DNA from: an uncultured Erysipelotrichaceae bacterium
GTDB taxonomy: Bacteria > Bacillota_I > Bacilli_A > Erysipelotrichales > Erysipelotrichaceae
Assembly (NCBI GenBank): GCA_900314345.1
Contig: OMUX01000224.1
Span: 1 to 26,527, forward strand
Direction: 5' to 3'
Length of the DNA stretch: 26,527 nucleotides
Shown: piece by piece, positions 20,613 through 23,656 of the stretch
How the letters are laid out: each line of letters opens with the position of its first letter
How positions within the stretch are numbered: position 1 is the stretch's first letter
Translations under genes and position numbers: made by a program
Notes under the pieces: generated by a model
What the model was told of the DNA's origin: nothing
The model's database searches: none
Seen by the model: the letters and a program-made list of their open reading frames with translations, nothing else

Positions 20613-22436
20613 ATGAAACAGAAAAAACTTCAGGCAATGGCGTTGGCCTTGTCTGCAGTGCTTGGATTAAGTGCCTGCGGCACGGCATCAAGCACTGTGG
20701 CAGAACAGACCGCTGTGACTCCTTCAGCGGAAACCACTGCTGAAGCAGAGGAAACAGCTTCAGTTACAACAACACTGGATCAGATTGACATGACGAAGTG
20801 GCAGTACAACAGTGATGACAATGTGTATTACCAGATCGGCATCAGCTATTGTGCAGATCCTGCAGATGAAAACTATGAGACGCTGGCAGTGTTTGTGCCG
20901 GGTGATTATTTCACAGCCATGGATAACGGAGACGGTACCTATACCTGTGAACTCAGTGCAAATGAAGTCAACGGCTATACAGCAGAGACTGCACCGATTG
21001 TCTTCCCGGTCAATACACCAGGCTATGCGGCTCAGAATGCATTGACAGACTATACCGATGTGAGTGATTACACGGATGCAGGCTTTGTCTACGTGCATGC
21101 AGGTCTCAGAGGCAGGGATGCCGGTGCACCTTCAGGTGTTGTGGATGCCAAGGCTGCAATCCGTTATATCAGATATAACAGCGGTGTGATTGCCGGTGAT
21201 ACAGAGAATATCTTTGTCTTCGGCATGTCCGGGGGTGGTGCGCAGTCCGCCATCATCGGCGCTTCCGGCGACAGTGATCTGTATACACCGTATCTGGAAG
21301 AGATCGGTGCTGTCATGAATGTCAGTGATGCAGTGGCAGGCTCCATGGACTGGTGCCCGATCACCGGTCTTGATTCCGCAGATGAATCGTATGAATGGAT
21401 GATGGGTGTCACAAGAACAGATCTCAGTGATGAAGAACAGAGCATCTCTGATGCACTGGCAGAAAGCTATGCTTCCTGGGTCAATGCACAGGGTTTCACG
21501 GACAGTGAAGGCAATGTCCTGACACTGGAGGAAAGTGAAGACGGTATTTACCAGGCAGGCAGCTACTATGACTATCTCAAGTCTGTCATAGAGGAAAGCC
21601 TGAACAACTTCCTGTCCGATACCGCATTCCCTTATGATGCATCGTCTGCTTCTTCAGGAGGCATGGGAGGTCCAGGCGGCGGAATGGAGGGAGAAAAGCC
21701 GGAAGGAGCACCGGACGGAAACTTCCCTGGAAACGGTGAAGGACCTGAAGGAAAGGATGGCGAAACGGATTATTCTGCAGTGGATGACATTGCAAGAAAC
21801 GGGTCTTCCACATCAGGACTGGATCTTTCCGGAACCTATGAGACAGCACAGGACTACATCGATGCCTTGAATGCCAACGGTACATGGGTCTCATATGATG
21901 CAGAAACAAACACAGCCACGATCACAAGCATTGAAGAATTTGTAACAAACATGAAGACAGCTTCCAAATCACTCGGCGCATTTGATCAGCTGGACGGTGG
22001 CCAGGATGAGAATGAACTGTTTGGTTACGGGGATGGAAACGGTGCGCACTTTGACAGCATACTGGCTTCCATTCTGAATGAACCTGGAAATGAATATGCA
22101 GCTGACTATGAAGCTGATCTTGCAAAGACCGACAGCCTTGGCACAGACGTACAGACAAGACTGAACATGTATACACCGCTGTACTATCTCATGGAAAGCA
22201 GTGAAGGCTATGGTACCTCCACACCGGCAAAGTACTGGAGAATCCGTACCGGAATCTGCCAGAGCGACACGGCACTGACAACGGAAGTGAATCTGGCACT
22301 GGCACTTGAAAGCAATGATGCAGTATCTTCCGTGGACTTTGCGACAGTCTGGGGTCAGGGACATACCATGGCAGAACGTACCGGTGATTCCACATCCAAC
22401 TTCATTGCATGGGTCATGGAATGCACACAGCGTTAA
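20613..22436 (+). CDS. Tannase-like alpha/beta-hydrolase lipoprotein
   Basis: This 607-residue protein is a surface-anchored esterase. Residues 1-22 form a lipoprotein signal with lipobox LSAC (Cys22), followed by a Ser/Thr/Glu-rich linker to about residue 55. The nucleophile is Ser206 in GMSGGGAQS. The acid is probably Asp552 in CQSDTAL and the histidine His584 in GQGHTM. The stretches DWCPITGLDSADESYEW and AKYWRIRTG resemble bacterial tannases, which release gallic acid from gallate esters. A Gly/Pro/Glu-rich insert (about 345-388, GGMGGPGGGMEGEKPEG) lies within the lid region. AAGGAG precedes the ATG. The gene is single, with an operator-like repeat at its promoter, so it may be induced by its substrate. 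A different phenolic or acyl ester is possible. Confidence 0.78.
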   Translation: MKQKKLQAMALALSAVLGLSACGTASSTVAEQTAVTPSAETTAEAEETASVTTTLDQIDMTKWQYNSDDNVYYQIGISYCADPADENYETLAVFVPGDYFTAMDNGDGTYTCELSANEVNGYTAETAPIVFPVNTPGYAAQNALTDYTDVSDYTDAGFVYVHAGLRGRDAGAPSGVVDAKAAIRYIRYNSGVIAGDTENIFVFGMSGGGAQSAIIGASGDSDLYTPYLEEIGAVMNVSDAVAGSMDWCPITGLDSADESYEWMMGVTRTDLSDEEQSISDALAESYASWVNAQGFTDSEGNVLTLEESEDGIYQAGSYYDYLKSVIEESLNNFLSDTAFPYDASSASSGGMGGPGGGMEGEKPEGAPDGNFPGNGEGPEGKDGETDYSAVDDIARNGSSTSGLDLSGTYETAQDYIDALNANGTWVSYDAETNTATITSIEEFVTNMKTASKSLGAFDQLDGGQDENELFGYGDGNGAHFDSILASILNEPGNEYAADYEADLAKTDSLGTDVQTRLNMYTPLYYLMESSEGYGTSTPAKYWRIRTGICQSDTALTTEVNLALALESNDAVSSVDFATVWGQGHTMAERTGDSTSNFIAWVMECTQR

Positions 22437-22454: not shown

Positions 22455-22489
22455 AAAAAGGAACGATGCTGAGCTGCATCGTTTCTTTC
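22455..22489. terminator. Bidirectional terminator between the esterase and AAA+ ATPase genes
   Basis: AACGATGC (22462-22469) and GCATCGTT (22476-22483) form a perfect 8-bp stem with a TGAGCT loop. The minus strand continues into CCTTTTTT, a good U run for the ATPase gene. The plus strand continues into TCTTTCT, which is weaker for the esterase gene. Confidence 0.85.
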
Positions 22490-22493
22490 TGGT

Positions 22494-23537
22494 CTATCTG
22501 TTTTTCACGAACACATCGAAGCGTGGCAATGCCATGGAAACATAGCCTCTTTGTTCAATATTGATCAGTCCCTTTTCACTCAGCCTCTTCCGGTAAACGG
22601 AATACAGACTGTTGGAAATATTCATGTCATGCAGAAGGTCAGATACCTTGCTGGATTCCTTCCTTGAGATATATGTCAGGAATTTCCGGTCAAGTCCTGA
22701 TAAGGATGACCAGATCTTGGCATATACATACTCTTCCAGCTGCTGATCAAAGCCCTGCATGATCACTTCTGTGTTGATTTCCTTCTGGGTGAACTTCTGA
22801 TTCCAGTACAGGTAGCCAAGAAGCTGGAAGGCAAAGGCATAGCCTTTGGTGATACCGGCCATTTCCCTGGCTTCCTCTTCAGTAATCTCCAGTGTACGCA
22901 TGTATGTGGATACCATGCCGGTACGGTTCAGGGATGTCAGCTCGATCTTCGGTGTTCTGAGCAGAAAGGTCATATTGCTTTCATTCTGCAGATCAGAGAC
23001 ATTTTCATACAAGCCTGTCATCAGCAGGAACATCGGCAGCTTCTTGCGTGTCATCATCTGAAACGTAGTGATGAATGCCTTCAGATTCTCATTGTTGTCA
23101 GCTTCATCTACCGTGACAAGCAGATTCTTTCCTTTCTTTTTCATCTCCTTCAGCATTTCCTCCAGCGCAGCTTCGGGATCTGTAATATCCGGAGAGCCTT
23201 CATAGGTGACATTGAGCCCTGGAATGTTGATGCTCAGATGAATGCTGGAAAAAAGACGATGCAGACTTCGGGTTGAATTCATCTTGGAGATCAGAGGAGT
23301 AAGCATATCACGGTTGGGATTCAGATCGATCACATTCCAGTCTTCGTTTTCGGAGAACTGTGAAGCGATCTCAGAGAGAAGCACGGTTTTGCCGGAGCCT
23401 CTGACACCGGTGATGATATATGCATGGCTGCCGGTATCACCGCCGATGAAAGTGTCCTTGATTTTCTGAATCTGCATGTCCCGTGAAATGTACTCCATTG
23501 GCTGAATGCCGAATGCAAGTGAGAATGGGTTTTTCAT
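22494..23537 (-). CDS. AAA+ ATPase with probable winged-helix C-terminus
   Basis: This 347-residue protein resembles the ATPase_2/Orc1-Cdc6-like group of bacterial ATP-binding proteins of unknown role. Walker A is GVRGSGKT (44-51). Walker B is LLVTVDEADNN (139-149). FLLMTGLYENV (170-180) is a sensor-like strand. The arginine-rich region before 200 and the helical stretch around 215-270 complete the AAA+ lid. Residues 280-347 have the pattern of a winged-helix DNA-binding domain (FLTYI, then SKVSDLLHDMNISNSLYSVY, then KGLINIEQRGYVSM). AAGGAG lies 10 nt before the ATG. Upstream is an array of 10-bp repeats within which its promoter lies. I infer DNA binding and possible self-regulation; no substrate or partner is known. 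Confidence 0.85.
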   Translation of the reverse strand: MKNPFSLAFGIQPMEYISRDMQIQKIKDTFIGGDTGSHAYIITGVRGSGKTVLLSEIASQFSENEDWNVIDLNPNRDMLTPLISKMNSTRSLHRLFSSIHLSINIPGLNVTYEGSPDITDPEAALEEMLKEMKKKGKNLLVTVDEADNNENLKAFITTFQMMTRKKLPMFLLMTGLYENVSDLQNESNMTFLLRTPKIELTSLNRTGMVSTYMRTLEITEEEAREMAGITKGYAFAFQLLGYLYWNQKFTQKEINTEVIMQGFDQQLEEYVYAKIWSSLSGLDRKFLTYISRKESSKVSDLLHDMNISNSLYSVYRKRLSEKGLINIEQRGYVSMALPRFDVFVKNR

Positions 23538-23559: not shown

Positions 23560-23588
23560 GTTATATCATTTTTGCAATTCTATATCAA
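23560..23588 (-). promoter_or_regulatory. AAA+ ATPase promoter built from repeat units
   Basis: On the minus strand TTGATA (23588-23583) is followed after 17 bp by TATAAC (23565-23560). Both boxes are parts of the TGATATA repeat units of the neighbouring array. Any protein binding the repeats would cover the promoter. Confidence 0.65.
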
Positions 23589-23656
23589 CTTATATTAAAC
23601 TATATCAATTTATATCATTTTTGGTTTCTTATATTATTTTATATCATCTTATATCA
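23562..23656. repeat. Array of eight TATATYA units on a 10-bp register
   Basis: TATATCA occurs at 23562, 23581, 23601, 23611, 23640 and 23650; TATATTA occurs at 23591 and 23630. The start-to-start distances are 19, 10, 10, 10, 19, 10 and 10. The two wide steps each hide one decayed 9-bp unit (TTTTTGCAA and TTTTTGGTT on the plus strand). On the ATPase coding strand the unit reads TGATATAARN. All copies fall on the same face of the helix. There are no long spacers, so it is not CRISPR. The unit length and phase suggest a cooperative protein-binding site or iteron-like element. Confidence 0.9.

Follow-up and report, generated by a model that had tools for sequence, protein, structure and literature searches.

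A tandem-repeat array of variable sequence at the promoter of a stand-alone ATPase gene, likely read by the product of that gene

Why does the promoter of a solitary ATPase gene lie within a string of short, regularly spaced direct repeats, and which protein reads them? The question is raised by the window analysed here, a stretch of 26,527 nucleotides from an uncultured Erysipelotrichaceae bacterium (GenBank assembly GCA_900314345.1, contig OMUX01000224.1), in which an initial annotation, made from the sequence alone, had noticed eight phased units around the promoter of an AAA+ ATPase gene and had proposed that a protein, perhaps the ATPase itself, assembles along them. The explanation that we favour as a whole, and consider likely, is that the array serves as operator for the adjacent ATPase gene, read by the product of that gene and most likely self-repressing. 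The features concerned are the following.

23561..23656, minus strand: tandem repeat array of eight units of the TGATATAA type, in the register AATGATATAA; proposed operator of the ATPase gene
23583..23588, minus strand: -35-like box TTGATA, part of the seventh unit
23560..23565, minus strand: -10-like box TATAAC, beginning at position 5 of the eighth unit, the one nearest the gene
22494..23537, minus strand: open reading frame of a stand-alone AAA+/STAND-like ATPase of 347 amino acids with a predicted C-terminal winged helix (PF01637 match and structural model)

The array is real. The first bases of its units on the minus strand are 23656, 23646, 23636, 23617, 23607, 23597, 23587 and 23568, so that the successive steps are 10-10-19-10-10-10-19 bp, and its composition is six TGATATA and two TAATATA. 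The two promoter boxes are 17 bp apart and each falls inside a unit, as had been described. Because the six copies of a single 7-mer within 200 bp upstream of the gene exceed the number reached in every one of 3,160 dinucleotide shuffles of homologue upstream regions (at most five), the window array is not a product of chance. The claim that all copies lie on one face of the helix did not survive: at 10.5 bp per turn, simple arithmetic from the positions shows a progressive drift, which leaves the last unit about 0.4 turn off the first.

The homologues of the ATPase were collected as 203 loci with a match (some genes being matched twice), which were reduced to 191 with a start codon, more than 300 amino acids and at least 60 nucleotides upstream, to 173 below 90% identity, and finally to 158 with at least 30% identity and at least 150 nucleotides upstream; subsets of 147, 148 and 135 were used for covariation, array position and promoter geometry, respectively. 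The loci taken from a second collection are the best 80 of at least 547 stretches encoding a relative (one gene may match twice), and close relatives are therefore over-represented in the set. Among the matches listed in a pattern scan of that collection, 547 of 592 stretches encode a relative.

Inspection of the upstream DNA revealed that tandem repeats, different in sequence from gene to gene, precede most homologues. A single 7-mer occurs at least four times within 200 bp upstream of 140 of the 158 non-redundant homologues, compared with 53 of 3,160 dinucleotide shuffles (1.7%) and one of 150 control upstream regions belonging to other open reading frames of the same loci. The spacing between units is 10 bp in 308 and 19 bp in 173 of 641 steps, and the most frequent string of steps is 10-19-10-19-10 (15 arrays); a subgroup with CTAACA units uses steps of 9 and 17 bp instead. 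A tandem array upstream is a trait of this ATPase family, variable in sequence and conserved in architecture. The proposed search for TGATATAAR before homologous genes would mostly fail, because the sequence of the unit is variable among them and only the architecture is conserved. Arrays are still present upstream of three interrupted copies of the gene (L007/L011, L009/L013 and L010/L012, two of them in genome G041 and one in G026). When the upstream regions of 14 plasmid homologues were looked at by eye, repeats were seen in five (L228, L201, L203, L198 and L196, from Actinomycetota, Chlamydiota and Bacillota); L197, L232 and L234 were among those in which none could be made out.

The 19-bp steps had been thought to hide decayed units. 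This idea is not borne out, as the sequences in 174 such gaps from 103 arrays match the unit of their own array no better than those of other arrays. The gap nonamers share a weak common composition, approximately G/T-A-A-T-T-T-A-A-A, unrelated to the own unit, and are possibly a spacer with its own role.

An iterative fit, which made no use of the proteins and may have misplaced some units, brought the units into a common register. Their consensus is A-[A/G]-N-N-[A/C/G]-T-A-A-A-A, and 35 distinct unit cores were found among 135 arrays; many homologues therefore share a unit, and many differ. Most units are AT-rich, and GC-richer ones were recognized by eye before some GC-rich homologues, such as GACTCACA in Arthrobacter (L228). 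A further suggestion, that paralogues within a genome are insulated from each other by their units, was not retained: none of 23 such pairs shares a unit core, compared with 9.0% of all pairs, but only about two sharing pairs would be expected, and the difference is not significant.

The assignment of the encoded protein as a P-loop ATPase was confirmed. It matches PF01637 (ATPase_2) with 36.6 bits against a gathering cut-off of 33.2, and all 73 family members compared match this model at E ≤ 1e-3; the Walker A motif lies around G44-T51, and the residues G44, G47, G49, K50, T51, D144 and E145 of the Walker A and B motifs are invariant across the 73 sequences. Among the Pfam and NCBIfam models listed for the window protein, the only ones above cut-off are the general ATPase models PF01637, AAA_14 and AAA_22. 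The winged-helix end, which had been regarded as likely, fits the C-terminal secondary structure of the AlphaFold2 model (mean predicted local distance difference test score 92), in which we read the helix at 309-321 as the recognition helix and the region around 330-335, with a strand at 332-335, as the wing.

For the 147 homologues, the base at each unit position was set against all 340 protein columns that were well filled. By mutual information the leading columns are 330 for unit position 1, 309 for position 2, 313 for position 3, 310 for position 4 and 311 for position 7, all of which sit in the predicted recognition helix or beside the wing strand. Eleven residue-base pairs, picked after this result, were evaluated against characters simulated on the ATPase-domain tree, and five of them rank first among 1,610-1,668 residue traits (p 0.0003-0.0018): C4-Lys310 (22/26), A3-Asn313 (19/22), G1-Tyr330 (50/52), A1-Arg330 (41/71) and G2-Lys309 (12/15). 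In a run without such selection, the top residue falls inside the 21 helix and wing columns (of 340) for 11 of 20 base states. The association is also visible between proteins of comparable divergence: at about 50% ATPase-domain identity, unit positions 1-4 agree in 83% of cases when all four residues are shared (57 pairs), versus 29% for the 1,811 pairs with no more than one in common, and at about 40% identity the corresponding values are 63% (19 pairs) and 36% (4,032 pairs). The window itself fits this code, with Arg330 in the protein and A at position 1 of the unit. Since the variation of the unit tracks residues of the wing and recognition helix, the most likely reader of the array is the ATPase encoded beside it, and we hold this to be very probable on the strength of the covariation and of the repeats upstream of so many homologues; the binder that the initial annotation had named only with hesitation is thus strongly supported by comparative sequence evidence.

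Several results weigh against this conclusion. Besides the units possibly placed in the wrong register, 18 of the 158 homologues have no array by the 7-mer count; at positions 5, 8 and 9 of the unit the leading column falls outside the helix and wing; the other six chosen pairs rank 2, 2, 6, 15, 20 and 1347; and in the unselected run the top residue is outside the helix and wing for 9 of 20 base states. In addition, when whole-column mutual information is simulated on the tree, columns other than those of the recognition helix obtain higher z values, and clade structure therefore makes up part of the signal. One could suppose instead that a different host protein binds the array, or that the repeats are mere drift in AT-rich promoters, as the base composition of most units might suggest. 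However, shuffled sequences and control upstream regions seldom yield such repeats, the GC-richer units of some GC-rich homologues do not agree with drift, and covariation with the recognition helix encoded by the adjacent gene would not be expected if the binder were another protein. We consider both of these possibilities very improbable.

If the ATPase reads the array, what does it do there? In 72 of the 135 arrays the best sigma-A-like -10 box begins with the fifth base of a unit, the same register as in the window, and in 43 of the 135 a TTG-starting sequence close to TTGACA (exactly TTGACA in 24) lies exactly 17 bp upstream of the -10 box within the unit, which in these 43 arrays is mostly in the second unit. 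Further peaks of near-TTGACA sequences, at distances of 7 and 36-37 bp, reflect how the units are spaced. The distance from the end of the array to the ATG has a median of 19 nucleotides (148 arrays). The fact that the -10 box is so often built into a unit suggests self-repression. The near-constant half of the unit (TAAAA/TATAA) can double as the -10 box. In the clearest layout, that of the 43 arrays, a TTGACA-like box immediately precedes unit 1, the -10 box falls in unit 2, and the array continues to near the ribosome-binding site; the units there span the -10 box, the start site and the leader. As occupancy of the units would shut out RNA polymerase, the gene is most likely self-repressing; judged from position and geometry, repression of the ATPase gene by its own product appears probable to us. 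The 38 of 135 arrays in which the best -10 box lies outside any unit count against it, and so do the modest promoter score of the window (9.4) and the location of its -35 box inside a unit.

The same binding might serve activation, or a bistable switch with positive feedback, rather than repression. Six of the window units lie upstream of the -35 box, and IniR, a regulator with an ATPase domain, is reported to bind a promoter and induce it (PMC5760070). However, in the clearest layout the -10 box is in unit 2 and the other units are found downstream of it, towards the ribosome-binding site, which is a blocking position, and we judge the activating role unlikely.

Self-repression would operate through the following steps. 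The C-terminal winged helix would read a unit of about 10 bp, in which residues 309, 310 and 313 would recognize positions 2-4, and residue 330, of the wing, position 1, as the covariation suggests. Several protomers, probably joined through the nucleotide-binding domain, would occupy pairs of units (10 bp) repeated 19 bp apart, and the ATP state would govern their assembly and hence their release. We give this ATP-gated assembly on the array about even chances.

Arrays elsewhere in the genome were also sought. No second tandem array above control was found in the window genome (83% complete), lone units being outside this search; the unit pattern has seven matches outside the array, all with two or three mismatches, versus six for the reversed control, and one of them, on contig C269, consists of two adjacent units and no more. 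Twelve further genomes, those with the known unit ACAGTAAA or CCAGTAAA, were searched for the ACAGTAAA tandem. The 32 matches with no more than one mismatch are confined to 11 of them, in each to a single place whose coordinates agree with the ATPase promoter, and the twelfth has no such match; the other 42 matches in the 12 genomes (one of them inside an array) stand against 55 for the control. A regulon was accordingly rejected, matches elsewhere being at about the level of the control and the tandem array being found at a single place in each genome that has it. Since these tandem searches brought up no second array, the target is apparently the gene itself.

Could the array then be an origin or a centromere, with the ATPase serving a mobile replicon, now lodged in the chromosome, as an initiator of the Orc1/Cdc6 kind or as its only segregation protein, and the overlap with the promoter secondary? 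In archaea, origin repeats are found beside the initiator gene, and iteron plasmid initiators, to which the initial annotation had likened this system, bind tandem direct repeats next to their own gene and autoregulate it. Here, too, the repeats adjoin the gene of the presumed binder, homologues occur on 30 plasmid records (E ≤ 1e-5), and the best Foldseek matches of the model, together with PABY2304 (PDB 2qen, TM-score (template modelling) 0.65), include Cdc6/Orc1 (1fnn, E 4.6e-12, TM-score 0.51; also 2qby), with which the ATPase would have in common an AAA+ domain plus a winged helix. StbA of plasmid R388 is reported to work on sets of 9-bp direct repeats (stbDR) around the promoter of its own operon (PMC3098194), a layout resembling the present one. 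However, the Orc1/Cdc6 model TIGR02928 gives the window protein only 19.3 bits against a cut-off of 181.3, no Rep-type initiator domain is present among the 25 Pfam families with E up to 1, the neighbours examined are ordinary and unrelated and offer no replicon context, several genomes carry as many as three copies without interruption, and the units often embed the -10 box of the gene at a fixed register. The likeness to iterons and initiators therefore holds for layout and fold, and is not one of membership, and an origin or centromere seems to us quite improbable.

An operator read by the adjacent gene's product can rather be compared with what is known of related ATPases. PABY2304 of P. 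abyssi belongs to the same domain family, PF01637, and has a similar fold, and S. solfataricus SSO1545 is a relative. No self-directed operator arrays or recognition code were found for PF01637 proteins in the titles and abstract openings listed from the open-access literature (subscription journals and preprints being outside this search). In the STAND-type regulators, a class to which we take MalT and the mycobacterial IniR to belong, promoter DNA binding is coupled to an ATPase, as proposed here. The description of IniR (PMC5760070) reports an ATPase domain predicted to be similar to SSO1545, and a protein of 818 amino acids with a MalT-like sensor domain that acts on another operon. In contrast, the window ATPase has 347 amino acids, its model leaves no space for a long C-terminal (superhelical) sensor domain between the ATPase region and the winged helix, and no second tandem array was found.

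The distribution of the gene is sporadic, with homologues in 6 of 60 genomes among relatives, 16 of 392 in a sample of the phylum and 19 of 294 in a sample of the order (each count including the window's own genome), and in 58 of 224 genomes of another family; all these genome sets overlap. No homologue was found in phages, two weak relatives were found on viral contigs, and peptide-pattern scans starting from the single window protein found no relatives. An anti-phage identity was considered and not used, as the model NF053860 (DS41_1_antiphage) is matched by 11 of 73 members, at best with 9.3e-5, which is too weak.

The gene has no conserved neighbour (the largest cluster comprises 6 of 449 neighbouring open reading frames at 173 loci), and no Pfam family with more than four members is common among 125 neighbour proteins. 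In the window it is flanked by a glycosyltransferase gene on one side and, directly adjoining on the other, by a subtype A tannase gene (20613-22436; NF041555, E 4.5e-228). The glycosyltransferase has relatives at 53-65% identity in another 11 genomes of the genus, where flanks of at most 1.5 kb on each side matched neither a tannase nor the ATPase; an empty site was sought at these loci, which give no clean boundary. Among 30 thiI loci examined (35 matches), the ATPase gene stands behind thiI in G267 only (L017/L245), which suggests a local gain or loss of the ATPase gene; the far flank differs, however. A perfect-stem terminator-like hairpin is present within 80 nucleotides 5' of the array at 21 of 148 loci, versus none in one base shuffle of each, and the ATPase gene thus often stands directly behind a terminator. 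In the window, a terminator-like hairpin lies at the other end of the gene, and no Rfam family reaches its gathering score in the window.

22462..22483, minus strand: terminator-like hairpin 3' of the ATPase gene (weak: one found versus 1.1 expected in shuffles)

As to what the ATPase does after derepression, our guess is an accessory, horizontally moving function responsive to stress or invasion. Taken further, these genes might form a large family of solitary ATPases of sporadic occurrence. Every lineage, and every paralogue within a genome as far as these were compared (all 23 pairs differ), would have a DNA address of its own together with the reader that fits it, and this reader would assemble, dependent on ATP, on a composite 29-bp (10+19) repeat. 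The family would amount to a natural library of readers and addresses selected for mutual insulation, made of self-contained switches or selfish elements without partner genes. This wider picture is tentative and, in our estimate, rather doubtful.

The array offers a direct experimental handle on the ATPase family. A widespread 'ATP-binding protein' without an assigned function becomes a protein that is likely to read DNA and regulate itself, with a recognition code that can be deciphered, and its many pairs of reader and operator make up a data set for winged-helix specificity and possibly a source of orthogonal switches.
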